IMG/VR virus record: IMGVR_UViG_3300009506_000019
Span: 62,001 to 126,000 of that record
Reading direction: 5' to 3' (one strand)
Source: a virus
DNA length: 64,000 bases
This document shows, in pieces, positions 1 through 62,501 of the stretch. The translations under genes were made by a program, and so were the position numbers. The stretch's first letter is position 1; the number at the start of each line of letters is the position of its first letter. A model generated the notes under the pieces. The model did no database searches, was not told the DNA's origin, and saw only the letters and a program-made list of their open reading frames with translations.

Positions 1-45
1 TGGGGCATCGTCGTCTGAGGCATCGTCGTCTGAGGCATCGGATTG
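1..45 (-). repeat. 15-bp tandem repeat coding MPQTT
   Basis: The 15-base unit gcatcgtcgtctgag occurs in tandem at the window edge, and the array continues out of view. It encodes the MPQTT pentapeptide repeat in the tail of the ssDNA-binding-like protein. Such units can change copy number by slippage without breaking the frame. Confidence 0.6.
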
Positions 46-767
46 GCCGGAGGCAACGAAGCTGGCATGGCTCCGTGTGTGGCCACCGGTTGACCACCAG
101 GCGTATAGCCTGGCATTTGTTGTTGAGGCTGACCACCAGCTACCTGTTGTGGCTGTTGCTGGGTTGTACCGTTGATGAACTTGAGCATGTCATCTTCGGT
201 CTGGAACGGAATCATGTCAGAGATGGCTTTTTTCATCATCTCTTGACATTTGATTGAAAGAGCGTTCATGTCGCCCTGATAGTTGAAATCAGACTTGTCC
301 TGACGAGAGGTTTTGTATTGAACCCGACGACCATTGCCCTCTGTCCAACACATCCAATCACAATCAGTGACCTTGCCACCCTGGTCGTACCACTTCGTCA
401 TCTCCTCATAGAATTGATTGCCAAATTTGGCAATCTTCACATCTTGAGCTTCATAGTCCCATACAGGAAGGAGATGGACAGGTCGAACACTGAAGTCTTG
501 TCGATTGCCGTCACGATCAAACTTGTCTTGTTGATCGAGGATATCCCAGAGAGGATCTTGATTGTCCTTCATCCAGGTAGAAAAGCTGGCATCAACTTGC
601 CGATAGAAACGAAGGTTTTCCTTCTTCCCTTGTGGTGTAACTCTCGAACACGAAGGAATGTTGTGTACCCATCTGCCCTCGGCCTCTGGAAACAGAGGTC
701 TGATGAGCTTGGGGTTGTTGGTGACGGTGAGGTAGATCGTGTCTTTTTTGATCTGAAGGAACGACAT
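1..767 (-). CDS. Partial ssDNA-binding-like protein (C-terminus beyond window)
   Basis: The frame opens at ATG 767 with a good AGGAGA ribosome-binding site 5 bases upstream and stays open to the left window edge, so the 3' end is missing. About 255 codons are visible. The first ~170 residues form a compact region (starts MSFLQIKKDT) rich in aromatic and charged residues. A Gln/Gly/Pro-rich tail follows, ending in MPQTT repeats. A folded core plus a flexible Q/G/P linker is the layout of single-stranded DNA-binding proteins, and the nearby nrdJ and purZ fit a DNA-metabolism role, but I see no decisive motif. A primase-associated or other nucleic-acid-binding protein is equally possible. Confidence 0.4.
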   Translation of the reverse strand, partial: MSFLQIKKDTIYLTVTNNPKLIRPLFPEAEGRWVHNIPSCSRVTPQGKKENLRFYRQVDASFSTWMKDNQDPLWDILDQQDKFDRDGNRQDFSVRPVHLLPVWDYEAQDVKIAKFGNQFYEEMTKWYDQGGKVTDCDWMCWTEGNGRRVQYKTSRQDKSDFNYQGDMNALSIKCQEMMKKAISDMIPFQTEDDMLKFINGTTQQQPQQVAGGQPQQQMPGYTPGGQPVATHGAMPASLPPANPMPQTTMPQTTMP

Positions 768-1214: not shown

Positions 1215-1379
1215 TCAATCATCATCCCAGCATCTACACGGCAAAATACTGTCACCGTGGAACCTGCCACAATGAATACAATACTTCTCACGTATTGCAT
1301 TCAAGAACTTGAGCCGCTCCTCTTCACTCATCTCCTCAAATTCAGGGAGAACAATGCTGAGAAGCTGCTCAATGGTCAT
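1215..1379 (-). CDS. Small cysteine-rich (zinc-finger-like) protein, 54 aa
   Basis: The ATG at 1379 overlaps the purZ stop (TGATG), a translational-coupling arrangement, so the start was placed there rather than upstream inside purZ. The N-terminal half is an acidic helix (LPEFEEMSEEERLKF). The C-terminus carries CIHCGRFHG followed by PCRCWDDD: two CxC/CxxC pairs that can bind zinc. Small proteins with a CIHCG…C.CW ending are common in phages and have no settled function. Co-translation with purZ hints at a link to nucleotide metabolism, but that is inference only. Confidence 0.6.
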   Translation of the reverse strand: MTIEQLLSIVLPEFEEMSEEERLKFLNAIREKYCIHCGRFHGDSILPCRCWDDD

Positions 1380-2755
1380 CACACTTCGTCCGGACCGCCT
1401 GATTGTACTACGGCTGCCATCTCCCCAGAGGATCGACGGACAATCGTGTGCTCCACATCCGGACCAGTTGACAAGTAATTGAAAAACACTCCGAGCTTGG
1501 ATTCCAGAGTCGTGATCCAATCTCTGGTTTTCTGTGTCAGTGAGTCCCATGATGACTTGTGCCGATCTTGATAGTTCAGGTAGTCAACAAACGACAACAT
1601 GAGCTTCGTTGGTCGATTGATATCCAACGCCTTCTTGAGATCGGTAGGCTTCCCATCGGGCCTATCAAGCGTAAATACCCGACGCTTGCGCTTCGTTGCA
1701 GTGGTGATTTCTACGATGGGCTCTGGAGACTCGGCGTGCTCTGTGATTTCTTCCCATGTAATTTCTTCGCCCGACATAGGACCAGAATCTCCAGCAACAC
1801 GAATAGGAAAAGTACGGGTGACACCATAGACATCCCTGACGGCAAATGGGGAAATGCCCGCGTCAGCACACCAATTAGAAGCATTGGTGTCACGAGAAGT
1901 AGTTTTGCCACGGTATCCATGGTGAAGAGAAAGGACGGAGCCCTGAGTTCCTTCAAGTAGGATCGGCTCATTCCTGTCAATAAGCCGATTGAGAAACTCA
2001 ACAGTACCCCCAACAAATTGTTTGAGGAAATCGTCATCTCCAGAGTACCTCACTTTTTCTGGTTCGATGAATTCACCCCAATCGGTGACCACACCATCGT
2101 TTTCCAGAACTACCATCATGCCTTCGACGAAACGATCATAGTTGACATCCTGTCCCGTCTTCTTGCGGAAGTAGTCAGTGAGATTCAACTTCTGACCGGG
2201 AAGTACCACCATCTTCGTGCCACGTGCTGCCTTCCTGCAGGCATTTGCGCCAACACCATGAGTGGTAGAGCCAAGAGCTTTCCATGCACTGTCCGGTGGA
2301 AGCTTGTCGCATCCAGCACAAGTGCCACCAAGCTTGGCATGTTCGCTGCAGTCGATTGGGTGTGTCCACAGATCACCACAATCCGGCATACGACCACCAT
2401 TTTCTGCGATTTTGTCGATTGGGTCGATGATAACAGCATTTGGATCGATCATGAGACGATCATCGCTCCAAACACCAGCTTCTTTCAGAACTTCGATTTC
2501 GTGCTTGAGATGTTCGATGTCGATTTGAGCATTGGCACCAAGAACCACTTTTGCATTGGGGAAGTGGAAAGCGCCACAAGGAATGGTGTGGAAAGCAAAG
2601 TGCTTTCCTTTGTACTCGACAGTATGCGCTGCGTTTGGACCACCTGTACGAACCAGAGCAGCGTAGGGAACATCTTGCAGGATGGACATGAATTTGCCCT
2701 TGCCCTCGCTGCCAGCATTCAATCCCACCAAAATATCAACGCAACGATTCGTCAT
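1379..2755 (-). CDS. purZ: PurZ-like adenylosuccinate synthetase (possible dGMP/aminoadenine pathway)
   Basis: 458 residues of the PurA/PurZ fold. PurA adds aspartate to IMP using GTP; phage PurZ acts on dGMP and leads to 2-aminoadenine (Z) DNA. Visible: P-loop GSEGKGK (15-21) with Ser16 in place of PurA's catalytic Asp, as in PurZ; PNAAHT (40-45) with the conserved His44; GSTTHGVG (162-169); EGTQG (268-272); TSRD (286-289), PurZ-like rather than PurA-like TSSN; IRVAGDSG (318-325). Asp391 in LSFVDYL aligns with the PurA Asp that reads guanine of GTP, and STGPD (429-433) is PurA-like, so GTP use is likely. A Cys-rich insert (C126, C136, C146, C149) looks metal-binding. The start overlaps the previous stop (TAATG). 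An unusual PurA is the main alternative. Confidence 0.8.
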   Translation of the reverse strand: MTNRCVDILVGLNAGSEGKGKFMSILQDVPYAALVRTGGPNAAHTVEYKGKHFAFHTIPCGAFHFPNAKVVLGANAQIDIEHLKHEIEVLKEAGVWSDDRLMIDPNAVIIDPIDKIAENGGRMPDCGDLWTHPIDCSEHAKLGGTCAGCDKLPPDSAWKALGSTTHGVGANACRKAARGTKMVVLPGQKLNLTDYFRKKTGQDVNYDRFVEGMMVVLENDGVVTDWGEFIEPEKVRYSGDDDFLKQFVGGTVEFLNRLIDRNEPILLEGTQGSVLSLHHGYRGKTTSRDTNASNWCADAGISPFAVRDVYGVTRTFPIRVAGDSGPMSGEEITWEEITEHAESPEPIVEITTATKRKRRVFTLDRPDGKPTDLKKALDINRPTKLMLSFVDYLNYQDRHKSSWDSLTQKTRDWITTLESKLGVFFNYLSTGPDVEHTIVRRSSGEMAAVVQSGGPDEV

Positions 2756-3000
2756 TATGCTTTCTCCTGTACAATGTTGTCGATATAACTCGACGGTATG
2801 GAGCCTTTTACTTTCAAAAGGACGTTTCCCTTGTCGTCCACTATAATACTGGTGGGGTAGCTGATTATTCGGTACCGTGCTATCGTCAGCAGGTCTTCCA
2901 AATCAGTGGAGTCGAATCGTATATGCTTGAAGTCCAAACCATCACGTTGTGGAAGGGTTGGTAACTTCTCACCATTCTTTGTGAATACGTAGATAATCAT
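2755..3000 (-). CDS. Thioredoxin-fold protein lacking CxxC, 81 aa
   Basis: Start taken at ATG 3000 (MIIYVFTKNG) because the earlier in-frame start would lie inside nrdJ. The pattern beta-strand, helix, then SYPTSIIVDDKG with the conserved cis-proline stretch is typical of the thioredoxin/glutaredoxin fold. The usual CxxC at the end of the first strand is absent (TKNGEKL), so it probably is not a dithiol reductant. It lies between nrdJ and purZ with stop/start overlap to purZ. Ribonucleotide reductase needs a thiol reductant, which suggests a connection, but without active-site cysteines the role could be structural or regulatory. Confidence 0.65.
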   Translation of the reverse strand: MIIYVFTKNGEKLPTLPQRDGLDFKHIRFDSTDLEDLLTIARYRIISYPTSIIVDDKGNVLLKVKGSIPSSYIDNIVQEKA

Positions 3001-3014
3001 ACATATTTTATACC

Positions 3015-5306
3015 TTAACAGCGGCTGTAGCCGCAATTATAGCATTTGGAGCAGCCTTCTTCGAATGCCATGGCTGCACCGCAAGACGGACACGCACCAA
3101 CATGCCCATTTGTGGCCTTATGCTCAGCTGTTTGCCCCTGCATCTCAGCAAGATGTTCCTCAAGAGCAACAGAGATAGCATCTCCACACGATGTGATAAT
3201 TCGTGGTCGATTTCCTGTATGCTTTGACTTGTGCATTGCTGTGACGTGACAACGAATGCCACCAAGTTGTTTTGCAATTTTCTCTGGTGGAGCGCCGTGT
3301 TGCATGGCAATGCTGGCCATTCTGGCGATAGCTTCTGTTTGTGCAGCAGCACAGCCACCACCTTTGCCCAGACGAGCCGTAATCTCGTGCGTACCATCCT
3401 CATTTCCACCAATGTATACCATTAGACTACCGCAACCGTTCACTACTTTGCGGTTGCTGCCATGCGTAACCGGTGCACGCTTGCCAATCTGGATGAGCCC
3501 ATTCGGCTCTACCTTCTTGGTGCTGAGAGGCTGATATTTACGGCTTCCATCGCGGTATACCGTAATTCCTTTGCATCCACCTTCAAAAGCCATCTTGTAG
3601 GCTTTGTCCACATCAGCAGCAGAGGCATCGTGACTCATATTGATGGTTTTTGATACCGCCGACGTAATGTATCTCTGCCAGATAGTTTGATGATGGATAT
3701 GCCACTCATAATCAATATCATGAGCGGTGGGGAAAGCTGCCCGAATGTCTGCTGGTAGAAAATCCGCTTTCTTGAGAGAACCACCCACATTGGCCAACTT
3801 CTGTCTAACCTCTGGGGTGTCCAACCCACGTCGCTCGAGCATGCTGAACAAAGCAGGATGATAATCCACCTGCACCATACCAGCCTGATCACGAACAGTC
3901 ACAGGAGCGAACAATGGTTCAATCCCACTTGAACACATGGCATAGAGCGATGTGGTGCCAGTCGGAGCGATGGTCGTTCTATCACTATTGCGCATATGCT
4001 TTTCTTTGCCATCATACGCACTCCCCTCAAAGAAGGGAAAATTCCCACGATCTTGACCAAGCCTACGACTCTCATCCAACGAAATCTTGTCGAAAAACTC
4101 ACCGATTTCATCGGCCTTGGACAAAGCCGCATCTGAATCGTATGGAATATTCATGGTAGCAAGCATGTCTGCCCACCCCATGATGCCAAGACCAATCCTA
4201 CGAGTACCACGGTTCATTTCAGCCAGCTCTTGGATTGGAAAGCAATTTACTTCCACAATGTCATCCAAGAATTGAACACCAAAACGAACGGCATCTTCCA
4301 GCGCTTCCCAATCTACTTGGGATGTACCATTGATTCCGGCCACGAACTTGCTGAGGTTTATATGTCCGAGATTGCAGGACTCATAGGGGAGGAGCGGCTG
4401 CTCACCACAAGGATTAGTAGTACGAATCCTACCAATGTGGGGAATAGCATGCTTCCTATTAGCAGTGTCTTCGAAAAAGATGCCAGGCTCGCCATTTTCG
4501 TGTGCATTGTGAACAATCAAGTCCCACAGCTCTTGAGCTGGCATTGACCCACGTTTTTCGCCTGTGTGAGGATCTTTGAAATACCAATCATCACCAGCAA
4601 CTAGAGCTTCCATAAATCTGTCTGGAATTGAAACCGAGATGTTGAACTTCTCGATTCCAATGACAGATTTGAGTCTTTTGGCCTCTTCCGGGCCAACATC
4701 AAACTTCTTGGCCAATTCATCAATTTCTATCTCAATGCCTGCTTTTTTGCAGGTGATGAAATCAACAATGTCCGGATGCCCAACATCCAGCATTGCCATA
4801 TTTGCTCCCTCACGCATTCCCTGTGCTACATGGGTCGCATTCTCGTTCAGCATCCGCAGCCAATTGACCGGACCTCTGGTTGTGAATCGATCTGCGGCTT
4901 TTGTGCCTGCGGAACGTATTCCACCCAGGAAGAATCCCGTGCCTCCACCGGAGGCTTGGATCATCCCTTGATTGTAGTGCGATTTGTATATAGATGGAAG
5001 GTTGTCTTCTACCGGTAGTACGAAACATGCTGAACACTGTGCGTTGGGAAATCCTGCATTGACAAGCGTAGGAGTGTTTGGCATAAACTTATGCTCAAAC
5101 ATCATCTCAGTTGCTTTTTCGATAAAACGAGCAGTAGCCTTGCCATCCTCATACACAGAATGGCCTTTTGCTACGTGATTGGCTACGCGACGAAATGCAT
5201 CAAGCGGCGTTTCTTGTTTGCCATTGTCTTTTGTGAATAAAATTCTCTCCCGCATGATGTTGTAAACAACATCGGAGACATTAATGCCTTCAGCCGCAGC
5301 CTGCAT
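3015..5306 (-). CDS. nrdJ: Adenosylcobalamin-dependent (class II) ribonucleoside reductase
   Basis: 763 aa, full length. It makes deoxyribonucleotides using a B12-generated thiyl radical, in the cytoplasm, independent of oxygen. Visible: NTPTLVNAGFPNAQCSACF with redox Cys91; NPCGEQPLLPYESCNLG with the radical Cys300, Glu302 and second redox Cys311 (same 11-residue spacing as in the Thermotoga enzyme); a TSCPD domain from about residue 622; and a C-terminal Cys-rich ribbon (CPSCG…CSKCYNCGYSRC) that re-reduces the active site. No ATP cone or intein is seen. Start chosen at ATG 5306 with GGAG five bases upstream; an in-frame stop lies further up. The thioredoxin-fold gene and purZ follow immediately. 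Confidence 0.95.
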   Translation of the reverse strand: MQAAAEGINVSDVVYNIMRERILFTKDNGKQETPLDAFRRVANHVAKGHSVYEDGKATARFIEKATEMMFEHKFMPNTPTLVNAGFPNAQCSACFVLPVEDNLPSIYKSHYNQGMIQASGGGTGFFLGGIRSAGTKAADRFTTRGPVNWLRMLNENATHVAQGMREGANMAMLDVGHPDIVDFITCKKAGIEIEIDELAKKFDVGPEEAKRLKSVIGIEKFNISVSIPDRFMEALVAGDDWYFKDPHTGEKRGSMPAQELWDLIVHNAHENGEPGIFFEDTANRKHAIPHIGRIRTTNPCGEQPLLPYESCNLGHINLSKFVAGINGTSQVDWEALEDAVRFGVQFLDDIVEVNCFPIQELAEMNRGTRRIGLGIMGWADMLATMNIPYDSDAALSKADEIGEFFDKISLDESRRLGQDRGNFPFFEGSAYDGKEKHMRNSDRTTIAPTGTTSLYAMCSSGIEPLFAPVTVRDQAGMVQVDYHPALFSMLERRGLDTPEVRQKLANVGGSLKKADFLPADIRAAFPTAHDIDYEWHIHHQTIWQRYITSAVSKTINMSHDASAADVDKAYKMAFEGGCKGITVYRDGSRKYQPLSTKKVEPNGLIQIGKRAPVTHGSNRKVVNGCGSLMVYIGGNEDGTHEITARLGKGGGCAAAQTEAIARMASIAMQHGAPPEKIAKQLGGIRCHVTAMHKSKHTGNRPRIITSCGDAISVALEEHLAEMQGQTAEHKATNGHVGACPSCGAAMAFEEGCSKCYNCGYSRC

Positions 5307-6401: not shown

Positions 6402-8393
6402 CTATGTAGCGGAGCTTAACCCAGCTCCCTCTAGTACGTTAATAATTGCGTTTATAGCCGCTCTGGCTTCCGAGTCTACCGTTGTACCTCCAGTAGGATC
6501 GGAAATCTTAGTCGGCTGCGATGATGGTGGAACAGCTCCCCATGCCGCAAAACCACTACCAATCTGAAGTTCTAAATCATAAGAACCACCAATGGTTCCC
6601 ATAGTAACTCTATTGTTGCTGGTGGTTGTGGCACCTCTACCAAAAGCCATACTAGTATTGTGTGAAGCGTGTGCCTGATAGCCAAGTGCCACGGAACCCT
6701 GTATATTATCATCTATCTGAGTCGCAGCACCGATTGCAATAGAATAGTCTGCATTACCGGTTGCGGTTGATCCAACATCGGCCCCATCGCCGAGAGCAAT
6801 GGCACTTACTGAATTGTTCCACACCTTGGCGTTTCCACCAATGGACACTGAGCTACCCTGGCCAAGGTTTTGTGCGTTTACACCGATCGCAACACCACCG
6901 GTCTCACTTACTGTTGCTGCGCTTCCGATGGCAACCGAAGAAATACCTGTCGCCTGAGCGTTGTTACCCATAGCCACAGAAAATTGAAGTGTGGCATCAG
7001 TACCTGAACCAATAGCGACCGCACCAACACCAGTAGCAGTAGCGGTATCACCGACCGCCACTGCTGAAGAGGCACCACTAGAAGCTGAATAACCAATAGA
7101 AACCGCGTGTGTTGGAGTTGTTCCTGACGTAGAGGCTAGGTTGCCGACAATCACACTACCAGAACCACCACCACCCGCAGTTGCACCAGCACCAATTGCA
7201 ATCGTACCTGTATTTGTGGTGTTGATGTCTGCGCCGTTGCCGATGGCGATTGCCACAGACCCACTTCCAGCTGAAGCAAGACCTATCGCAATACCATTAC
7301 CTGCAATGGCTCCATCGCCAAGACCAACACCCCCAGCAGTTGAAGTCGTGCCTGTTCCAATAGCAATCGAATCATCACCAGTACATTGAGCACCGGTACC
7401 AAGAGCGATTGCTCTCAAGGAACTATCATTTACTGTAGAATCTTGGCCAATTGCGATCGATAGACTTGATCCACCACCCGTTGTGGTTCCAACTTTGGCT
7501 GCATATCCAATCGCTATGGCTGACGTGTTGCCATTCCACACCCTAGCGGATCTACCAAGTGCTACAGCGTCCGTGGCGCTGGCGTCAATTTCGGCGCTAT
7601 AGCCCAAAGACACTGTGCCTGAAGCGTAAGCTTTAGAGTATGGACCAACCGCAACTGCTGTTCCAGCTGTCGCTGATGAAGAAATTCCAACAGCAACAGA
7701 GCTTCCACCATTTGCAACAGAAGCTTGATATCCAACAGCAACAGATCCAATGCTATTGGTGTTGCTTGCTAAATAACCGAGAGCAACTGAGCTTCCTGAC
7801 CCGGCTGATGCCTGTGTTCCAATGGCAACACAACTCGTGGCGCTAGCTGCAGCCGTCGCAAGATATCCCATCACGATAGCGTAGTTCGCACCAGCACCAA
7901 CCGTAGGTCCTCTACCAATGGCAATAGCATTGGTACCAGACACATTGGGCGCATAGCCCATTGCAATCGCGTATGATGTAGAATCTTGCACCAGGGCATT
8001 GTAACCAATGGCGATAGCGTAATCAGAATTTCCAGTTGCAGTAGTTCCTATTCTAGCTTGGTAACCGACTGCAATACCACCAACAGTGTTATCATATACT
8101 TGAGCCGTGTTGCCAATTGCAATGCTGTTCGCACACGCATCGTTTATAGTGGCAGAACCACCGATCGCAATGCCGTAATCGGAATTTGCAGCAGCTGTTG
8201 ATCCAACATGTGCACTGTGTCCAATTGCCACTGAGTTGGAGGAGCTATCCCAAACCTGAGCCTGATTTCCAAGAGCAACGCTGCTTTCACACCCGTCTTT
8301 TACTGACGCAGTGTCACCAATAACCACACTGTATGCTGATCCACCAGTGGCTGAGCCTCCCACGTTACGATCGAACGCGAGCAATTGTCCCAA
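6402..8393 (-). pseudogene. YadA-head-like fibre, downstream part (frame-shifted from 8300-11629)
   Basis: 663 codons of repeated AIAIG/SVAVG-type units, the signature of the YadA/trimeric-autotransporter head (left-handed beta-roll). The only in-frame start is a TTG at 8393 with no ribosome-binding site, inside the previous ORF, and the repeats continue directly from that ORF in the -1 frame. I therefore read this as the 3' part of one gene of about 1,740 residues. The C-terminus has DLELQIGSG, then a PVPP-like linker and a SEARAAINAIINVLEGAGL end, a form common at phage fibre C-termini. Whether it is translated depends on whether the frame change is real. Confidence 0.75.
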
Positions 8394-11300
8394 ACCTTGG
8401 TTTGAGCGCCTATGGCCACCACACCATGAGTAAGTGCTGTTGAGTTATACCCAATTGCAATACAATCGTCTTGGTTTACATGGGTACCGTCACCAATGGC
8501 CACACTGTATCCAATGGCCACACATCTTTCAGACTGGTCTGATATTGATGAATTATGACCAATAGCAATAGATTCAAGCGATGCTCCCGTAGCCGAATTT
8601 CCGATTTCAACCGACCGACCGATTGCGATCGCGTCTGTAGTGTTGTCCCAAATTGTTGCAAGAGTACCAATTGCAATTGAATTGTTTGCGGTAGACGGCA
8701 ATGTTGAGAAAGGAGCAATCGCAATGCCGTAACCAGCAGCACATGTTACCTGTTGGCCGATTGCAATCGAGCCTGCAGAACCTGACGCGGTTGTATTCCA
8801 GCCAACAGCTGTGCCACCACTACCAGTAGCAGATGACGATACACCAACAGCTGTGCCATACACTGCAGACGCTATTGAACTATCACCAACAGCAATGGCA
8901 CTGGCTTGGTTCACAGTAGCATTGCGTCCAATCGCCAATGTAGAATTGGCTGAAGCAGCTGCACCATAACCAATCGCCATCGCATAAGAAGATATGGCTT
9001 GGGCATTGGTGCCAATGGCCATCATATACGAGTGGCCAGACACCCCAGCGCCAGCTCCATAACCAATGGCCATAGAGCCACTGGAAAGTGTGACCGCCGC
9101 ATTTTGGCCAATAGCGATGCCGTTTCCGGCTGTCGAAGCTACCGAAGCAGAACTACCAATAGCGACCGCTCCGGTGCTAGCTGCAGTAGCGCCTGGGCCA
9201 GCTTTGAAGCTATTAGCACCAGTGCCAAGAGATGAAAGAGCTGTGCCACTTCCAACAGTTACGGAAGATCCATCATATGTGAATTCGGACGATCCACCAA
9301 ATGCACCAGCATTGTTATATTGAACTTGAGTATCGGCACCACCTGGAGAAGTAGAACCACCAGCCTCGTCTTGCCATGTTGCTGCTGATCCAGATGTAGC
9401 CTTCAATACCTGACCGGCTGTCGGGGCCGTAGCACTCGAAATGGCAACTACTGTGGTAGCAGTTCGAAGTCCACTGGCAGTACGGTCATCAGACAGGCGT
9501 GAATCACCAGTATCGATGAGTGTGGCATCTGATATCTTACTGTTCAAATTTGCAAGTGTGTCAACTGTATGAAAAGCTCCACCAAGAGCATGTGCTGTGA
9601 GACCAGCATCATCCTGCCATGTTGCAGCCGTGCCTGATGTGGCTTTCAACACCTGGCCAGCTGTTGGAGCTGTAGCACTTGAAATGGCCACAACTGTGGT
9701 AGCTGTGCGAAGCCCACTGGCGGTACGATCATTCGACAAACGCGAATCGCCCGTATCGATGAGTGTAGCGTCTGAGATTTTACTATTGAGATTTGCAAGC
9801 GTATCGGCTGAATGATAAGCGCCACCAAGAGTATGCGCTACCATACTTGAATCAAGATTTACCCAAGCTGAACCAGTATGGCCACGGAAATTTGAGCCAT
9901 CCCACTCGATTGCACCAGCTGTTGCGGTTGTTCCACCACCAACAATGATTCCCTTTCCAAGCTGAAGCTCGAGATCATAGGCACCAGCAATGGTACCAAT
10001 AGTACACCGACTTGCCGCAGTTGAAGCTGCGGTATAGCCAATGGCAACACTGTTTATGTGAGTAACAGACGCGGTGTCACCAACAGCAACCCCACCGGCT
10101 TGATTTACTAAAGCACCACCACCAACGGCAACCGTATAATTTGCTCCTGCCGACGCGGTATAACCAATTGCTATGGCATCAGATGATGCACAGGCAGCAC
10201 CATACCCAATAGCTGTAGTCCGCAATGCCGCTGCGTTGGCCGCTCCTCCAACCGCTGTACTGTTCTGAGCCAAAGCTGTTGTAGTGTAACCAATTGCTAC
10301 AGCATAGTTTTGTGCAGCATTGGCTTGATATCCAAGAGCAAGAGTTCCAGAAGCACCAGCTGTTGCAGACCCACCAACAGCGAACCCATATGCTGCTGTT
10401 GAAACAGCACCTGCTCCAATCGCAATAGCATTGCCATAAGAAGACGCGCCAGAACCAATGGATACGCTATTGACGCCAGTTCCAACAGCTCCCGGACCAA
10501 CCACAACAGCATGATCACACAATGCATTGACTTCGGCTTGATATCCAATGGCGATAGAATGTCCGGACGCTCCTATCGCAGAATTACCAACATCAGCTTG
10601 ATAACCGATGGCAATCGCATATGGGCAGTTATCCCAGATCTTTGTAGTGTAGCCCATTGCGATTGTGTCAGTGGCTGTCGCAACAACATTAGCAGAATAC
10701 CCAATGACTATCGAATTTGTTGCAAGACCAGAGCTAACATATCCAATTGCTATTGATGAATTGCCGGTAGCTTGGGCGTTTGGTCCAAGAGCAGTGCTGG
10801 CAAAGGCAGCGTCTGTAAACGGACCAACCGCAACTGCATTTGTGTTGTTCGACAATGCCGAACGACCTATCGCAATTGATGATGTGCCTGTGGTCTGAGC
10901 AGACAGCCCCATACTGATACTGTATTGTCCCGAGGCTGTGGTTAAACCACCAACCGCTACGGCTTGAGCGCCTGCGGTGGCGCTATTACCAACTGCTACA
11001 GAGTTCGTGTTGCTAACACTAGAAGATCGACCGACAGCGACAGACCCAGAAAAATTAGCAGTGGCTTGAGCACCAATAGCAACCGAACTACCTTGACCAG
11101 ATCCCGAGGGTACGAGAGCAGAGGCTTGGTATCCTACGGCCGTGCAATACTCACCACCCAAACCACCAGAACCGGCTTGTGCGCCGGAACCGATGGCAGT
11201 ATCATAGCTGGCATTAGTGATAGCATTGTATCCAATGGCTACCGTTTCTGGATCACCCGCACGGCTGCTATATCCGACCGCGACACCATGAATACCAGTC

Positions 11301-11629
11301 ACTCGTGCATCATACCCAACAGCAACGCTGTGTGATGATCCACAATAGGTGTTATGACCCAAGGCCGTGCCATTGGCAGCATCAACCCGAGCAAAATGAC
11401 CAACAGCTGTTGAGAGTGTACTTACTGCATGAACCCATGCACCATGCCCAACAACTGTACATTCAGAACCTTGACCAGTTGCTCCCTCTCCAATAGCTAC
11501 TGCATGAGAACCGCTCGCAACGGCTCCATTGCCAGCCTTAAAGCTCTCAGCACCGCTGCCAGGAGACAGAAGGGCACCCACAAAAGTTTGGATGCCTTGA
11601 TATACTGCGTCTCCGTATACTTTACCCAT
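8300..11629 (-). CDS. YadA-head-like trimeric fibre, upstream part
   Basis: 1,109 codons from ATG 11629. An opening (MGKVYGDAVYQGIQ, then FKAGNGAVASG) leads into about 35 YadA-head-like AIAIGxxA repeats. A DLELQLGKG strand closes the first block. A central linker follows, with two near-identical copies of a phage-fibre unit around LNSKISDATLIDTGDSRLS. A second FKAGPGATAAS opening and another head block come next. The ORF then ends out of frame in non-repeat residues (WEAQPLVDQH…). YadA heads bind extracellular matrix or host surfaces in bacteria; here the role is probably a receptor-binding or decorating fibre. Two FKAG openings indicate internal duplication. Confidence 0.75.
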   Translation of the reverse strand: MGKVYGDAVYQGIQTFVGALLSPGSGAESFKAGNGAVASGSHAVAIGEGATGQGSECTVVGHGAWVHAVSTLSTAVGHFARVDAANGTALGHNTYCGSSHSVAVGYDARVTGIHGVAVGYSSRAGDPETVAIGYNAITNASYDTAIGSGAQAGSGGLGGEYCTAVGYQASALVPSGSGQGSSVAIGAQATANFSGSVAVGRSSSVSNTNSVAVGNSATAGAQAVAVGGLTTASGQYSISMGLSAQTTGTSSIAIGRSALSNNTNAVAVGPFTDAAFASTALGPNAQATGNSSIAIGYVSSGLATNSIVIGYSANVVATATDTIAMGYTTKIWDNCPYAIAIGYQADVGNSAIGASGHSIAIGYQAEVNALCDHAVVVGPGAVGTGVNSVSIGSGASSYGNAIAIGAGAVSTAAYGFAVGGSATAGASGTLALGYQANAAQNYAVAIGYTTTALAQNSTAVGGAANAAALRTTAIGYGAACASSDAIAIGYTASAGANYTVAVGGGALVNQAGGVAVGDTASVTHINSVAIGYTAASTAASRCTIGTIAGAYDLELQLGKGIIVGGGTTATAGAIEWDGSNFRGHTGSAWVNLDSSMVAHTLGGAYHSADTLANLNSKISDATLIDTGDSRLSNDRTASGLRTATTVVAISSATAPTAGQVLKATSGTAATWQDDAGLTAHALGGAFHTVDTLANLNSKISDATLIDTGDSRLSDDRTASGLRTATTVVAISSATAPTAGQVLKATSGSAATWQDEAGGSTSPGGADTQVQYNNAGAFGGSSEFTYDGSSVTVGSGTALSSLGTGANSFKAGPGATAASTGAVAIGSSASVASTAGNGIAIGQNAAVTLSSGSMAIGYGAGAGVSGHSYMMAIGTNAQAISSYAMAIGYGAAASANSTLAIGRNATVNQASAIAVGDSSIASAVYGTAVGVSSSATGSGGTAVGWNTTASGSAGSIAIGQQVTCAAGYGIAIAPFSTLPSTANNSIAIGTLATIWDNTTDAIAIGRSVEIGNSATGASLESIAIGHNSSISDQSERCVAIGYSVAIGDGTHVNQDDCIAIGYNSTALTHGVVAIGAQTKVWDNCSRSIVTWEAQPLVDQHTVWLLVTLRQ

Positions 11630-28394: not shown

Positions 28395-28470
28395 TGGCGG
28401 GAGAGGAGGGACTCGAACCCTCATCAAACAGGTTAACGGCCTGTTGCTCAGCCAATTGAGCTACACTCCC
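28395..28470 (-). tRNA. trnN-GUU: tRNA-Asn(GTT)
   Basis: Cloverleaf with encoded CCA. Acceptor GGGAGTG/CTCTCCC has one T:T mismatch. Anticodon loop CCGTTAA gives GTT. Position 33 is C instead of the near-universal U. Confidence 0.9.
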
Positions 28471-28474
28471 GCAT

Positions 28475-28549
28475 TGGTGGGGCGGAGTGGAATCGAACCA
28501 CTGCTCTCGGATTTTCAGTCCAAAGCTCTACCAACTGAGCTACCACCCC
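28475..28549 (-). tRNA. trnF-GAA: tRNA-Phe(GAA)
   Basis: Acceptor GGGGTGG/CCGCCCC, loop CTGAAAA (anticodon GAA), T-loop TTCGATT, encoded ACCA. Confidence 0.95.
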
Positions 28550-28553
28550 ATGT

Positions 28554-28624
28554 GCAGAGCTGGTCAGCCACGCGCTACCCATCCCAGATTGTGCTGGGCC
28601 AAAGCCTTGTCCGCTGCGCTCTGC
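28554..28624 (-). ncRNA. Structured spacer in tRNA array (candidate)
   Basis: Closed by GCAGAG/CTCTGC (28554-28559 with 28619-28624) with an inner hairpin CCCAG/CTGGG. It is not a tRNA: there is no T-arm. It lies between tRNA-Phe and tRNA-Ala. Confidence 0.3.
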
Positions 28625-28638
28625 AACTCTTACTTGTT

Positions 28639-28715
28639 TGGTGGACCGGACGGGACTCGAACCCGTGACCTCCTGGGTGCAAACCAAGCGCTCTCCCAAC
28701 TGAGCTACGCGGCCC
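28639..28715 (-). tRNA. trnA-UGC: tRNA-Ala(TGC)
   Basis: Loop TTTGCAC (anticodon TGC), T-loop TTCGAGT, encoded CCA. The 5' acceptor side has one extra or bulged base compared with the usual pattern. Confidence 0.9.
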
Positions 28716-28716
28716 A

Positions 28717-28792
28717 TGGAGCTGGTGAGAGGAATTGAACCTCCAACATCCGGTTTACAAGACCGGGGCTCTGCCAATTGAGCTACACCAGC
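28717..28792 (-). tRNA. trnT-UGU: tRNA-Thr(TGT)
   Basis: Acceptor GCTGGTG/CACCAGC, loop CTTGTAA (TGT), encoded CCA. Confidence 0.95.
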
Positions 28793-28810
28793 TCTTTGCC
28801 AGCGTTCAAT

Positions 28811-28885
28811 TGGCGGGCCTACTCCGACTCGAACGGAGATCTCCGGTTTTGGAGACCGGCATCCTACCAATTGAACGATAGACCC
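28811..28885 (-). tRNA. trnW-CCA: tRNA-Trp(CCA)
   Basis: Acceptor GGGTCTA/TAGGCCC, loop CTCCAAA (CCA anticodon), encoded CCA end. Confidence 0.95.
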
Positions 28886-28905
28886 TTGTTTCTTCACCAC
28901 CCGGC

Positions 28906-28980
28906 TGGTGGGCCGGGAGGGAATCGAACCCTCAACAAACGGGTTAAAAGCCCGCTGCGCTACCGTTGCGCCACCGGCCC
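28906..28980 (-). tRNA. trnK-UUU: tRNA-Lys(TTT)
   Basis: Acceptor GGGCCGG/CCGGCCC, loop CTTTTAA (TTT), encoded CCA. Confidence 0.95.
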
Positions 28981-29014
28981 ACACCGCCGATGGTCTTCTC
29001 CTCAGCGAACCGGA

Positions 29015-29091
29015 TGGTCCGCCAGGGAGGACTCGAACCCCCGACACGCGGGGTAGAAACCCGCTGCTCTGTCCAACTGAGCTACTGACGG
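29015..29091 (-). tRNA. trnR-UCU: tRNA-Arg(TCT)
   Basis: Acceptor CCGTCAG/CTGGCGG, loop TTTCTAC (TCT), encoded CCA. Reads AGA/AGG, rare in many hosts. Confidence 0.95.
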
Positions 29092-29111
29092 ACAGATCCG
29101 ATATTCGCGAC

Positions 29112-29187
29112 TGGTAGGCGAGGGGAGAATCGAACTCACCAACCTGTCGCTTATAAGGCGACGGCTCTACCATTGAGCTACTCGCCA
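29112..29187 (-). tRNA. trnI-UAU: tRNA-Ile(TAT)
   Basis: Loop CTTATAA gives TAT, which reads AUA directly. Most bacteria use a CAT anticodon with lysidine instead. Position 1:72 is T:T. Confidence 0.9.
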
Positions 29188-29199
29188 TTTCTCTCGAGT

Positions 29200-29274
29200 T
29201 GGACCGCCAGGTCGGAATCGAACCGACGTGCGCCTGCTTGGAAGGCAGGGGACCAGCCACTAGCCCACTGGCGG
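29200..29274 (-). tRNA. trnG-UCC: tRNA-Gly(TCC)
   Basis: Acceptor CCGCCAG/CTGGCGG, loop CTTCCAA (TCC), encoded CCA. Confidence 0.95.
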
Positions 29275-29277
29275 TTT

Positions 29278-29353
29278 TGGTGCGCAGAGCAGGGCTCGAA
29301 CCTGCGACCCTCTGCTTGTAAGGCAGACGCTCTCCCAACTGAGCTACCCGCGC
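29278..29353 (-). tRNA. trnV-UAC: tRNA-Val(TAC)
   Basis: Acceptor GCGCGGG/TCTGCGC, loop CTTACAA (TAC), encoded CCA. Confidence 0.95.
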
Positions 29354-29355
29354 AC

Positions 29356-29431
29356 TGGTCCAGGTGAGTGGAATTGAACCACTGACATCACGATTATCGG
29401 TCGTGTGCTCTCCCATCTGAGCTACACCTGG
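29356..29431 (-). tRNA. trnI-GAU: tRNA-Ile(GAT)
   Basis: Acceptor CCAGGTG/CACCTGG, stem CACGA/TCGTG, loop CCGATAA (GAT). C33 replaces U33. Encoded CCA. Confidence 0.9.
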
Positions 29432-29448
29432 ACAATGAAAGGCGGGGC

Positions 29449-29568
29449 TGGGGCGTCGCGCTCTTTCCATGCATCGACCATTCGCACCCTCTGGCTTAGC
29501 GAGCCAGCGCACAGTTTCTGGGGTGTCAGCCCCATGGTCTACCCCACGCTCTGACAAGCGTTGCCCCA
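29449..29568 (-). ncRNA. Multi-stem structured RNA candidate
   Basis: Read on the minus strand: outer stem TGGGGC/GCCCCA; 4-bp CGCT/AGCG hairpin; 6-bp TGGGGT/ACCCCA hairpin; 6-bp CTGGCT/AGCCAG hairpin. About 120 bases between tRNA-Ile(GAT) and tRNA-Met. It resembles a cloverleaf but has no T-arm motif and no plausible anticodon arm. Confidence 0.35.
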
Positions 29569-29574
29569 TAATTT

Positions 29575-29649
29575 TGGTAGCGGGAGCGAGAATCGAACTC
29601 GCGACGGTCTGGTTATGAGCCAGATGTTCTACCACTGAACTATCCCGCA
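29575..29649 (-). tRNA. trnM-CAU: tRNA-Met(CAT)
   Basis: Loop CTCATAA; the anticodon stem TCTGG/CCAGA lacks the GGG:CCC of initiators, so an elongator or a lysidine-type Ile tRNA. Position 1:72 is T:T. Confidence 0.9.
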
Positions 29650-29660
29650 ACAAATGCAAG

Positions 29661-29736
29661 TGGAGGGCCAGGCAGGAGTCGAACCCGCGACACCTTGGTC
29701 CGTAGCCAAGTGCTCTGTCCACTGAGCTACTGGCCC
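29661..29736 (-). tRNA. trnR-ACG: tRNA-Arg(ACG)
   Basis: Acceptor GGGCCAG/CTGGCCC, loop CTACGGA (ACG, likely edited to ICG), encoded CCA. Confidence 0.95.
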
Positions 29737-29738
29737 TT

Positions 29739-29814
29739 TGGCGGTGCGTACGGGAATCGAACCCGTCGTTTCCTGAGTGACAGTCAGGCCGGTTCACCAG
29801 CTCCGTCACGCACC
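29739..29814 (-). tRNA. trnD-GUC: tRNA-Asp(GTC)
   Basis: Acceptor GGTGCGT/ACGCACC, loop CTGTCAC (GTC), T-loop TTCGATT, encoded CCA. Confidence 0.95.
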
Positions 29815-29990
29815 GAGACGTGACCCAACTGTCCTTCAGTAGGTTCTGACCGTTTTGTCGATACCACCGAAGGAGGTCAGTTAGGCCACGGTGGTATCTC
29901 GAAAATTCGCTTTAATACCGGCCCACATTGTCGTCGTTATGACGACTCTTCCGGTCCTTGCGACCGAATGTGTGCCGAGGGGTAACATCA
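29815..29990 (-). ncRNA. Hairpin-rich leader or ncRNA downstream of a promoter
   Basis: Contains GATACCACCG/CGGTGGTATC (10 bp), GTCGTC/GACGAC and CGGTC/GACCG hairpins. A strong promoter (29996-30024) starts transcription just upstream, so this region would be the 5' part of a transcript reaching tRNA-Asp. No ORF with a start site. Confidence 0.35.
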
Positions 29991-29995
29991 CGATC

Positions 29996-30024
29996 ATTAT
30001 AACACAGCATGCTGTGCGTGTGAA
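29996..30024 (-). promoter_or_regulatory. Sigma70-like promoter with palindromic operator
   Basis: Minus strand TTCACA - 17 bases - TATAAT with an extended TGT. A perfect 14-bp palindrome (CACAGCATGCTGTG, 30003-30016) fills the spacer, the usual position for a repressor-binding site. Confidence 0.6.
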
Positions 30025-30031
30025 TTATTAG

Positions 30032-30115
30032 TGCTGAGGGCGGGACTCGAACCCGCACGAGCAATTGCCCAGGAGATTTTAAGTCTCCAGTGTCTACCAA
30101 TTCCACCACCCCAGC
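30032..30115 (-). tRNA. trnL-UAA: tRNA-Leu(TAA)
   Basis: Class II with a long variable arm; acceptor GCTGGGG/CCTCAGC, loop CTTAAAA. The 3' end reads A-CTA rather than ACCA, so CCA must be added by the host enzyme. It lies just upstream of the promoter at 29996. Confidence 0.9.
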
Positions 30116-30116
30116 T

Positions 30117-30202
30117 TGGTGGGCAAGGAGGGAATCGAACCCTCAATCCCGAAGGCACTGGTATTTGAAGCCAGCGTGTATACCAAGTTCCACCACTTGC
30201 CC
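30117..30202 (-). tRNA. trnL-CAA: tRNA-Leu(CAA)
   Basis: Class II. Aligning to the neighbour Leu(TAG) gives stem CTGGC/ACCAG and loop TTCAAAT, anticodon CAA, with one C:A mismatch at 31:39. A TCA reading (opal suppressor) would break the stem and was not adopted. Encoded CCA. Confidence 0.85.
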
Positions 30203-30204
30203 AT

Positions 30205-30236
30205 GAGCTACGCGCCCTGGAACCCTGTCGTAGCTC
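30205..30236. other. 8-bp perfect hairpin between Leu tRNAs
   Basis: GAGCTACG (30205-30212) and CGTAGCTC (30229-30236) with a 16-base loop. Probably a processing or leftover tRNA-like element; GAGCTAC and GTAGCTC are tRNA D-arm-like sequences. Confidence 0.4.
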
Positions 30237-30280
30237 GATGACGCCCTCCTACGTGCTTGACGCCACACCACTTTCTCGAT

Positions 30281-30366
30281 TGGTGGGTGCGGAGGGAGTC
30301 GAACCCTCAATCCCGAAGGCACCAGATCCTAAATCTGGCGTGTATCCCAAGTTCCACCACGCACCC
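30281..30366 (-). tRNA. trnL-UAG: tRNA-Leu(TAG)
   Basis: Class II; acceptor GGGTGCG/CGCACCC, stem CCAGA/TCTGG, loop TTTAGGA (TAG), encoded CCA. Confidence 0.95.
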
Positions 30367-30367
30367 T

Positions 30368-30453
30368 TGGTACGGGAGGCGGGACTCGAACCCGCACGGA
30401 CAAGCCACATGCTCCTCGGGCATGCGCGTCTACCATGATTCCGCCACTCCCGT
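30368..30453 (-). tRNA. trnL-GAG: tRNA-Leu(GAG)
   Basis: Class II; acceptor ACGGGAG/CTCCCGT, stem CATGC/GCATG, loop CCGAGGA (GAG) with C33 in place of U33. Encoded CCA. First tRNA of the minus array. Confidence 0.9.
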
Positions 30454-30477
30454 AGCTTACTTTTTACAAGGATAAGA

Positions 30478-30499
30478 GTCGCAGGAGGAAACCTGCGAC
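30478..30499. other. 8-bp hairpin in the leader of the minus tRNA array
   Basis: GTCGCAGG/CCTGCGAC around a 6-base loop, between the promoter at 30539 and tRNA-Leu(GAG). May help processing of the first tRNA. Confidence 0.5.
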
Positions 30500-30538
30500 A
30501 GCGATCGAGTTGTGCGTTTTATTCGCCATCTCACTCCA

Positions 30539-30567
30539 AGTATAACATACTGGTGACCGCACATCAA
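30539..30567 (-). promoter_or_regulatory. Promoter of the minus tRNA array
   Basis: TTGATG - 17 bases - TATACT with extended TGT. The start point would be about 30532, upstream of tRNA-Leu(GAG). Confidence 0.6.
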
Positions 30568-30586
30568 TCATTACCTATATCCGGAC

Positions 30587-30760
30587 ATGGACGAACAGCA
30601 ACAAAAAGATGCATTAGAGTTGTTGAAGGAAGCCACGGCAGCTCACCCAGACATTGTTTATGGAAGACCCAACACAGTAATTTCTCACACAGACATGGTG
30701 AATTGGTTGTATCAGTGGATTCCTCGAGTTCAAGGCTTCCTTGATGAAGTTGATGGATAA
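30587..30760 (+). CDS. Small acidic protein, 57 aa
   Basis: ATG 30587 to TAA 30760 (MDEQQQKDALELLKEATAAH…). Helical N-terminus, then NWLYQWIPRVQGFL. Weak ribosome-binding site (CCGG). It is the first plus-strand gene facing the minus tRNA array, ahead of the small 36-aa gene. No family recognised. The clean, charged composition supports a real gene more than its signals do. Confidence 0.45.
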   Translation: MDEQQQKDALELLKEATAAHPDIVYGRPNTVISHTDMVNWLYQWIPRVQGFLDEVDG

Positions 30761-30761
30761 A

Positions 30762-30791
30762 TTGACAACCACCACGTGATTATGATCTAAT
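30762..30791 (+). promoter_or_regulatory. Promoter of the plus tRNA array
   Basis: TTGACA (30762-30767), 18-base spacer, TCTAAT (30786-30791) with extended TGA. Transcription would start near 30798, directly before the 36-aa gene and the plus-strand tRNAs. Confidence 0.65.
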
Positions 30792-30812
30792 TGGAAGTGA
30801 TAGGAGAACGTC

Positions 30813-30923
30813 ATGGATACCGTGATGAAAAACACAGGCTTCGCTGTTCTTGCCAACGCCCTTGTTGGTCAGTCGCAGCCGTGTTACTCCTATCATCATT
30901 ATTCACAACCACACAGTAGTTAA
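30813..30923 (+). CDS. Tiny protein, 36 aa
   Basis: ATG 30813 with a good AGGAGA site 5 bases upstream and a consensus promoter. Sequence starts MDTVMKNTGF with a moderately hydrophobic core and an unusual His/Tyr/Ser-rich end. Too short for family assignment. It may be a leader peptide that links translation to the tRNA transcript, or a small inhibitor. Confidence 0.45.
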   Translation: MDTVMKNTGFAVLANALVGQSQPCYSYHHYSQPHSS

Positions 30924-30939
30924 GGCACGCTCACATAGA

Positions 30940-31029
30940 GGAGCGGTAGCCTAGCCTGGTAAGGCGGCGGGTTGCTAACCCGTTGGTGTGCTTGCACACT
31001 CGAGGGTTCGAATCCCTCCCGCTCCGCCA
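30940..31029 (+). tRNA. trnS-GCU: tRNA-Ser(GCT)
   Basis: Class II; acceptor GGAGCGG/CCGCTCC, loop TTGCTAA (GCT), long variable arm, encoded CCA. Confidence 0.95.
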
Positions 31030-31047
31030 TTTTCTTGTGAGGTTGTG

Positions 31048-31230
31048 ATGAAGGATGAATTCAAGAAAGCAGTAATCATGACAGGTGACGTACCGCACTG
31101 TTCGTGTCGGTATTGCAAAAACCTGAATCGCACCAGAATCGACAGGAAAAAGCAAAGAAAACAAAAGAGAAAAAGGAGGGCAAGACAGATTTTGAAGAAA
31201 TATTTACGTACGGGAGTAGCGCAGTGGTAG
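31048..31230 (+). CDS. Small basic Cys-rich protein, 60 aa
   Basis: Start ATG 31048 with GAGG upstream (a GTG three bases earlier is also possible). CSCRYC and a Lys/Arg-rich tail (RKKQRKQKRKRRARQ) suggest zinc and nucleic-acid binding. The last ~20 bases overlap tRNA-Pro, which is unusual, so the true end or the gene itself is uncertain. Confidence 0.45.
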   Translation: MKDEFKKAVIMTGDVPHCSCRYCKNLNRTRIDRKKQRKQKRKRRARQILKKYLRTGVAQW

Positions 31231-31284
31231 CGCACCGGTTTTGGGAGCCGGGGGTCGTGAGTTCAACCCTCACCTCCCGTACCA
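31210..31284 (+). tRNA. trnP-UGG: tRNA-Pro(TGG)
   Basis: Acceptor ACGGGAG/CTCCCGT, loop TTTGGGA (TGG), encoded CCA. Confidence 0.95.
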
Positions 31285-31287
31285 AAC

Positions 31288-31375
31288 GGATGGGTAGCCT
31301 AATTGGTAAGGCACCAGTCTTGAAAACTGGCGATGCATTCGTGCACTGCGGGTTCGAGTCCTGCCCCATCCGCCA
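31288..31375 (+). tRNA. trnS-UGA: tRNA-Ser(TGA)
   Basis: Class II; acceptor GGATGGG/CCCATCC, loop CTTGAAA (TGA), encoded CCA. Confidence 0.95.
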
Positions 31376-31384
31376 GCTTAAATT

Positions 31385-31455
31385 GCACCCGGCCGCAGGC
31401 GAAAGCCGAATTGGACCGAGCGAAAGCCGAAAGTCCGAGGATGACGGCCGGGTGC
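31385..31455 (+). ncRNA. Structured RNA with 10-bp closing stem and GNRA loops
   Basis: GCACCCGGCC (31385-31394) pairs perfectly with GGCCGGGTGC (31446-31455). Inside are a GGC-GAAA-GCC tetraloop hairpin (31398-31407) and GGAC/GTCC (31413-31416 with 31433-31436) enclosing a second GAAA-containing segment. No tRNA features or ORF. TTTAT follows. Confidence 0.45.
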
Positions 31456-31461
31456 TTTATG

Positions 31462-31536
31462 GCGGTTGTAGCTCAATGGAAGAGCATCCGGTTGTGGCCC
31501 GGAAGACGAGGAGTTCAATTCTCCCCAATCGCCCCA
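31462..31536 (+). tRNA. trnH-GUG: tRNA-His(GTG)
   Basis: Acceptor GCGGTTG/CAATCGC, loop TTGTGGC (GTG), encoded CCA. A G at 31461 supplies the His-specific G-1. Confidence 0.95.
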
Positions 31537-31539
31537 AAA

Positions 31540-31614
31540 GGCCAGATAGCCAAGTGGCAAGGCATGGAGCTGCAACCTCCATCATCGTCGGTTCGATTCC
31601 GACTCTGGCCTCCA
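31540..31614 (+). tRNA. trnC-GCA: tRNA-Cys(GCA)
   Basis: Acceptor GGCCAGA/TCTGGCC, loop CTGCAAC (GCA), encoded CCA. Confidence 0.95.
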
Positions 31615-31615
31615 C

Positions 31616-31689
31616 AGAGGAGTCGCTCAATGGCAGGGCAACGGGTTTTGGCCCCGTTTATCTGGGTTCGATTCCCAGCTCCTCTTCCA
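31616..31689 (+). tRNA. trnQ-UUG: tRNA-Gln(TTG)
   Basis: Acceptor AGAGGAG/CTCCTCT, loop TTTTGGC (TTG), encoded CCA. Confidence 0.95.
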
Positions 31690-31694
31690 TCCAT

Positions 31695-31782
31695 GGGTGT
31701 GTAGACCGCTATGGACACGGGCTTGGCTGTAGACCAAGCGTGCTTTGGCACCGTGAAGGTTCGATTCCTTCCACACCCACCA
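31695..31782 (+). tRNA. trnY-GUA: tRNA-Tyr(GTA)
   Basis: Class II; acceptor GGGTGTG/CACACCC, loop CTGTAGA (GTA), encoded CCA. Its end touches the stop of the convergent 153-aa gene. Confidence 0.95.
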
Positions 31783-42705: not shown

Positions 42706-43370
42706 GACTTATATATCTCTACTCTGTCAACGAAGGTGCTTTCTCCGGGAGTAATCAAACCGCCAATCCCAATTTTATCAGTTTGAGGGATACCACTTCT
42801 ATTCTCTAGAATATTTGGGCTTACCTTCAACCAATCTGGAGTGGTTATCTGATGATAGTTTAGATCGTTGGTAAATACCTGTACAACAGCCCTTCCATCG
42901 GACTGCAAAAGAAAATCGAGTCTAATGTGAAACCATTTATATTGTCCATTGGTTCCACCAAGAAGCGGCTGCTCATATAACTTGGTAGATGTCCCATTTA
43001 GCAACCGATACAAATTCAATGTGTGATCGTCCAGAATGAGCAGTTGATATCCGTTGGGCGTGAATTGATCTATAATGTCACCAGAAACTGGTGTCACTGT
43101 AACATCATCATCCATGCGCAAGCCAATACCTGCCATATGCACCAGTGCATCTGTCTTTTTGATAGAAAAGGCAGCTCGAATACTCAAATCCTGAATCAAT
43201 GTGTATTGTTCACTGATGTACTTGAAAAACCAATGGCCACGATCACCACTAAAACTTCTGCAATACAAATCGTGAGCTAGCTGGTCATCAGGCACCGTAA
43301 CGTTCTCTTGGCGACCATCAACGATGGTACCAGCACCAGATGTTAATTTTTCCCAATCAAGCTGTCCCAT
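42702..43370 (-). CDS. Lectin-like (jelly-roll) virion protein, 222 aa
   Basis: Beta-rich, with FFKYISEQYTLIQDLSIRAAFSIK, IGLRMDDDV and NGQYKWFHIRLDFLLQ, the alternation of a concanavalin-like LamG jelly-roll, and a C-terminal RVEIY strand. Similar to the next two proteins. Probably a carbohydrate-binding fibre-tip or decoration domain encoded as a separate gene. Confidence 0.6.
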   Translation of the reverse strand: MGQLDWEKLTSGAGTIVDGRQENVTVPDDQLAHDLYCRSFSGDRGHWFFKYISEQYTLIQDLSIRAAFSIKKTDALVHMAGIGLRMDDDVTVTPVSGDIIDQFTPNGYQLLILDDHTLNLYRLLNGTSTKLYEQPLLGGTNGQYKWFHIRLDFLLQSDGRAVVQVFTNDLNYHQITTPDWLKVSPNILENRSGIPQTDKIGIGGLITPGESTFVDRVEIYKS

Positions 43371-43377
43371 ATCAATC

Positions 43378-44915: not shown

Positions 44916-44917
44916 AA

Positions 44918-52477: not shown

Positions 52478-52480
52478 CGC

Positions 52481-52921: not shown

Positions 52922-52923
52922 GA

Positions 52924-53376: not shown

Positions 53377-53383
53377 AAGTCAC

Positions 53384-53884: not shown

Positions 53885-53888
53885 TTTA

Positions 53889-61274: not shown

Positions 61275-61320
61275 TATGGCCTCCTTCAAGTGAAGGGTAA
61301 AGTTACATCATACTACAGGC

Positions 61321-61893: not shown

Positions 61894-61895
61894 AA

Positions 61896-62480: not shown

Positions 62481-62501
62481 GCACCATCCCTCAAACCCTT
62501 G

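Follow-up and report, generated by a model that had tools for sequence, protein, structure and literature searches.

A divergent PurZ-type synthetase and linked nucleotide-pool genes suggest a candidate 2-aminoadenine pathway in a contractile-tailed phage

We analyzed a window of 64,000 nt, which corresponds to positions 62,001-126,000 of the IMG/VR virus record IMGVR_UViG_3300009506_000019 (166,061 bases in full). Close to its left edge, the minus strand encodes a homologue of adenylosuccinate synthetase in which serine replaces the catalytic aspartate of PurA, an arrangement that we refer to as Ser-type. The features of this region are listed below in window coordinates.

1..767 (record 61112-62767), minus strand: ExoX-like nuclease, of which the 5' part lies in the window; it adjoins PurZ in all four related records
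1379..2755, minus strand: PurZ-like (Ser-type) adenylosuccinate synthetase homologue of 458 aa, with an ATG start
1583..1585, minus strand: codon of Asp391, aligned with the GTP-reading Asp of PurA; Asn in most ATP-type PurZ
1754..1807, minus strand: PIRVAGDSGPMSGEEITW, aa 317-334, aligned motif common to PurZ0 and PurZ; PurA has RVGAGPFPTE instead
2288..2401, minus strand: lineage insert identified by alignment, aa 119-156, with four Cys (C126, C136, C146, C149) and a CxxC end
2693..2713, minus strand: P-loop GSEGKGK, aa 15-21, with Ser16 aligned to the catalytic Asp of PurA
2755..3036, minus strand: 93-aa ORF, thioredoxin-like by eye and without a family match; its stop overlaps the purZ start
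3015..5306, minus strand: B12-dependent class II ribonucleotide reductase, upstream of purZ in the same direction (NrdJ TIGR02504, 2.2e-172, above cut-off)

An earlier note on this DNA had placed the synthetase ORF at 1379-2755, which we recovered exactly, and each residue it named is present, namely G15-S16-E17-G18-K19-G20-K21, P40-N-A-A-H-T45, T286-S-R-D289, D391 in LSFVDYL, and STGPD. An AGGAG lies close 5' of the ATG, and the overlap with the 93-aa ORF suggests that the two genes are likely in one operon. The protein matches Pfam PF00709 (1.6e-46) and PHROG 1211 (phrog_1211, '2-aminooxy adenylosuccinate synthetase'; 1.3e-58), and it matches both PurA and PurZ models of NCBIfam, each under cut-off. 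The AlphaFold2 model (mean pLDDT 82, pTM 0.82) matched the PDB structures of P. horikoshii PurA with GTP/IMP (5k7x), PurZ0 (7vf6), and phage PurZ (6tnh, 7odx). A single-protein scan of IMG/VR with the window PurZ returned no matches.

We examined how the residues of the synthetase are distributed among its relatives. At the column of Ser16, which corresponds to PurA Asp13, Ser is found in 104/104 non-PurA rows and Asp in 14/14 PurA rows of a 118-row tree, and the window enzyme also carries the SG-PM-GE-TW motif of PurZ type. The assignment of Asp391 to the GTP-reading column was correct, as this residue aligns with the 'TKLD' of E. coli PurA. The same column holds Asp in all six PurZ0 proteins, Asn in 6 of 7 PurZ proteins, and Gln in S-2L. 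PurZ0 is said in its original report to use GTP. The PurZ of S-2L uses ATP or dATP (PMC8342488). Asp is, however, the state of 97 of the 118 tree rows (Asn, Gln, or His in 20), and 5 (59 rows) or 7 (118 rows) changes are counted at this column, so that the proposal of an evolutionary intermediate gains no support from the residue mix alone. Even the query's own clade contains Asn (L107) and His (L102) at this position. Because the nucleotide-reading residue has changed several times, the intermediate model becomes testable. Two other motifs were less informative than had been suggested. TSRD, which was described as PurZ-like, is not specific to PurZ, since many bacterial Ser-type homologues have TSRD and PurZ0 has TSSD or TSND; PNAAHT is present, but its Ala43 is peculiar to the query and a fragmentary relative (L075), with Gly in most others. 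The four-Cys insert is common to the query, G036, and G015 and absent from PurZ0, PurZ, and PurA. The insert probably forms a metal site, and the model is of low confidence over residues 126-151 within it.

To place the synthetase among PurA, PurZ, and PurZ0, as the earlier note had recommended, we built a tree of 59 rows (LG+C20; support as bootstrap/SH-aLRT) and a second tree of 118 rows, which gave the same outline. The Ser-type proteins, including the query, split from PurA at 100/100 in the 59-row tree and at 100 in the 118-row tree, which places the query outside PurA. In the 59-row tree, PurZ0 forms its own clade (99/90) and another (97/93) unites ATP-type PurZ with three proteins from IMG/VR; the query lies in neither. 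Its clade (98/91) is made up mostly of phage contigs and contains G036, L028 (record G015), L030 (record G016), L064, L102, L107, and L108 (an Actinophytocola locus), which shows that PurZ diversity exceeds the line from PurZ0 to PurZ. This clade is weakly sister to ATP-type PurZ (83/86). The ATP-type enzymes of phiVC8-like phages and S-2L share the catalytic Ser with the query, whereas they have Asn or Gln where the query has Asp391; unlike the query record, these phages have DatZ with MazZ, and DpoZ or PrimPol. By identity, the closest PurZ relative is the fragmentary L075 (56% over 102 columns), whose contig carries a PolA, unlike the DnaE pattern of the query.

None of the window proteins scanned was seen to be of datZ, mazZ, or dpoZ type, which agrees with the earlier note. 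The stronger evidence for a pathway to 2-aminoadenine (Z) lies outside the window, in an adjacent DutZ/DmtZ pair and a MazZ-2-like gene, which are listed here with other genes in record coordinates.

42531-46238, same strand as purZ: DnaE, DNA polymerase III alpha (family C)
48331-49746, same strand as purZ: ThyX
49890-50345, same strand as purZ: DutZ-like dUTPase
50338-50853, same strand as purZ: DmtZ-like, NDT-family protein
50850-51419, same strand as purZ: nucleotide kinase
51416-54049, same strand as purZ: primase-helicase of DnaG-DnaB type
55520-56137 (L004:16520-17137), same strand as purZ: Dam-type N6-adenine methylase
56112-56969, same strand as purZ: DCD
57111-57377, same strand as purZ, about 6 kb from it: MazZ-2-like (MazG/PRA-PH protein)
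57374-58816, beyond the left window edge: helicase
59804-61108, beyond the left window edge: RecA

The full-record search that had been advised thus yielded one of the genes sought, the MazZ-2-like gene (1.6e-8 against MazZ-2 of phage OH), and neither DatZ nor PolA. Using phmmer, we found no match in the record to DatZ, DUF5664, or PurB, and a domain search together with phmmer found no PolA/DpoZ (DNA_pol_A), the polymerase there being DnaE. The record therefore differs from ATP-type loci, in which datZ and mazZ are neighbors of purZ, and from PurZ0 genomes with their DpoZ-1 type PolA, with the reservation that IMG/VR contigs, this record included, may be incomplete, which makes gene absences provisional. 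Matches to a tail-sheath family (3.7e-103) and to baseplate J (Pfam) indicate that the phage is contractile-tailed.

The pair of dUTPase and NDT-family genes recalls the PurZ0 phages, in which dutZ is present in all 98 genomes, 85 of them also with dmtZ, and in which both activities have been measured (Poubanne et al. 2026, PMC12884076). The dUTPase of the record falls on the PurZ-linked side of a 103-row tree (89 SH-aLRT) and of a careful 48-row tree (99/97), and it has an RSS signature where RSG is usual. RSS is found in 56/58 PurZ-linked dUTPases (Ser in 1/37 unlinked ones) and RSG in 36/37 unlinked ones, in a set collected by means of a profile that included DutZ, and therefore enriched for that type, with the unlinked comparators taken from the same retrieval. 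When the query dUTPase group was constrained to join the unlinked ones, the AU test gave a p-AU of 0.62, which, on an unrooted tree, says only that a basal position of this group on the PurZ-linked side is possible; the DutZ assignment therefore rests on the 99/97 branch and the RSS signature. Four records with in-clade dUTPases and no purZ within 10 kb (G036, G039, G041, and G043) proved to carry PurZ elsewhere. The RSS-type dUTPase could thus be a useful marker in sequence searches, as it led to these four further PurZ-bearing contigs. Among the other in-clade records searched, three were fragments (8, 11, and 37 kb) and two, of 52 and 59 kb, lacked PurZ; PurZ was found in 0/19 records with out-of-clade dUTPases. 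The 735-kb phage LR756501 seemed at first to offer a PurZ match, but its PurA-like gene encodes the Asp of PurA (YGDEGKGK) and its dUTPase belongs to the unlinked type, and it was therefore dropped as support.

The NDT-like protein matched DmtZ proteins at 7e-7 in a 25-sequence search and had no matches in the IMG/VR single-protein scan or, by tblastn, in phages. The DmtZ alignment contained no segment sufficiently conserved to serve as a scan query. It keeps the DmtZ residues Tyr6, Asp12, Pro57, Asn77, and Glu103, mutation of which abolished or lowered the activity of Ghobes DmtZ (PMC12884076), whereas the more remote NDT relatives compared with it (L286, L050, and L051) lack Asp12 and Asn77. 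The resemblance to the characterized pool enzymes (PMC12884076) thus extends to an adjacent pair, an RSS-type dUTPase, and the Tyr/Asp/Pro/Asn/Glu set of DmtZ. Unlike those enzymes, the query's DutZ group splits off as a side branch, the lid residue Trp124 of DmtZ is Val in the query, and the two genes are separate and unfused.

The gene order of the record is conserved in related phages. In G036 (112.6 kb) and G016 (102.9 kb), the order is DnaE, DutZ-DmtZ-kinase, primase-helicase, helicase, RecA, ExoX-like nuclease, and PurZ, as in the query record, and the module recurs in G015 (144.8 kb) minus DutZ and DmtZ, which were looked for there and not found. Pol III alpha is present, and PolA was not found, in G015, G016, and the record of L102. 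In G016, purZ is directly followed by a gene for adenylosuccinate lyase, PurB (G016:74733-76217, L348; GSSAMPHKKNP signature). A 7.9-kb fragment (L242), whose dUTPase is 78% identical, encodes, in this order, a primase-helicase, a kinase, DmtZ-like and DutZ-like proteins, and ThyX; by eye, this 629-aa ThyX (L242:4841-6730) seems to hold an intein.

Taken together, these results suggest that the window gene probably encodes a divergent PurZ-type enzyme in a GTP-using dGMP-to-dZMP pathway of a phage with a contractile tail, where Z would replace some or all of the A. Since DutZ and DmtZ types, the helpers characteristic of PurZ0 phages, are also encoded in the record, it is reasonable to infer a Z-DNA phage. 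The enzyme would join dGMP and aspartate at the expense of GTP, read by Asp391, to form succino-dZMP (N6-succinyl-2-amino-dAMP), from which host PurB would release fumarate to give dZMP, a step for which the related phage G016 has its own PurB beside purZ. Kinases, possibly including the phage kinase beside dmtZ, would raise dZMP to dZTP. In the nucleotide pool, dATP would be drawn down and dGMP provided by the DutZ-type dUTPase and the MazZ-2-like enzyme, and the role of the DmtZ-type enzyme would be either to break down dAMP or to salvage the Z base by attaching it to deoxyribose phosphate. Z would finally be incorporated into the genome by the phage DnaE, and A would be kept out mainly through the loss of dATP and not through a Z-selective PolA. 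S-2L offers a precedent, as A is excluded there by pool cleaning and the polymerase is non-selective (PMC8599892). From sequences, residues, phylogeny, linkage, and synteny we infer what the enzymes do, which phosphate donor is used, and that virion DNA contains Z, in part or throughout.

In the open-access literature, Z phages are described as Siphoviridae and Podoviridae that use PolA or PrimPol, and a contractile-tailed Z phage with a family-C polymerase would therefore be a new variant. The broader proposal, that a large phage lineage, contractile-tailed here, makes Z-DNA through DnaE and a third, GTP-type PurZ lineage with a probably metal-binding Cys insert, has in our view an even chance of being right. 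If Z is in the virions, Z-DNA would reach large contractile-tailed phages and family-C polymerases, and a Z-selective PolA would be dispensable, with pool cleaning able to suffice.

We also considered whether the enzyme is a member of a wider bacterial family of Ser-type synthetases that has another purine substrate or product and acts in pool control or counter-defence, with the dUTPase and the NDT-like protein as ordinary pool cleaners. Hundreds of Ser-type homologues are found among bacterial and archaeal genome contigs, and many bacterial chromosomal genes carry both Ser16 and the GTP-type Asp391, so that these residues are not diagnostic and alone are not enough to establish dGMP as the substrate; the same genome scan ruled out Ser plus Asp alone as a mark of PurZ0. 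With many Ser-type rows being bacterial or archaeal, the residue mix therefore assigns the protein to Ser-type synthetases whose nucleotide site is of GTP type, and does not, by itself, indicate dGMP use or intermediate status. Some homologues occur in settings that suit such other roles: the single-domain L145 and L160 are each followed immediately by a DCD-like gene, a further neighbor being an MmeI-type restriction enzyme for L145 and an RNase H-like/kinase fusion for L160, and L124 has a kinase-like N-terminal domain. L124, the one closely examined, belongs with L111, L112, L114, L126, L161, and others to proteins of about 520-600 aa on bacterial genomes, which possibly serve nucleotide-based defence or base modification. 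Downstream of L124 and L111 is a DUF7002 gene, and upstream of L124 and L161 is a gene for an ImmA/IrrE-type peptidase, which in the case of L124 shows a weak Macro domain match. The synthetase of G015 without DutZ/DmtZ and the Dam-type methylase of the record both fit the wider-family explanation. The Z reading leaves both of these unaccounted for, and the methylase, which is odd for an adenine-free genome, argues mildly against full replacement. However, the record's dUTPase and NDT-like protein are of PurZ-linked types by tree and residues, and the dUTPase type predicted PurZ in four further records; we consider the wider-family explanation unlikely.

A second explanation is that the enzyme is a true PurZ0 from an actinophage-like source, an ordinary member of the described group. 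The query resembles PurZ0 of the Gordonia and Arthrobacter phages Archimedes, Ghobes, and Wayne in its catalytic Ser, GTP-type Asp, and SG-GE-TW motif; PurZ0 phages are its best-covered phage matches, and their genomes also have DutZ and DmtZ. In contrast, the tree disfavors this origin by placing the query outside the PurZ0 clade (99/90), identity is only about 32-35% (about 32% to Archimedes PurZ0), and the four-Cys insert is absent from PurZ0. The phage itself is large and contractile-tailed, with DnaE, a MazZ-2-like protein, ThyX, and a class II ribonucleotide reductase, and PolA/DpoZ was not found. We therefore consider a true PurZ0 highly improbable, and of the earlier suggestion of a PurZ0-like enzyme we keep the separation from ordinary PurA, the GTP-type Asp, the PurZ-type Ser and motif, and the DutZ/DmtZ pair, but not the clade. 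A phage PurA that converts IMP to adenylosuccinate in the normal provision of AMP would share the fold and GTP-type Asp of archaeal and bacterial PurA (P. horikoshii 5k7x, with archaeal PurA the top fold match) and would suit the two NCBIfam PurA models that outscore the PurZ model, all under cut-off, but it is very doubtful given that the query has Ser for the catalytic Asp, as in PurZ, lies outside all PurA rows (100/100), and has SGPM-GE where PurA has AGPFPTE.

Elsewhere in the window, two large proteins at 6402-11629 are similar to YadA-type trimeric adhesin and are probably tail fibres, and 25 tRNA genes lie in two arrays on opposite strands at 28395-31782.
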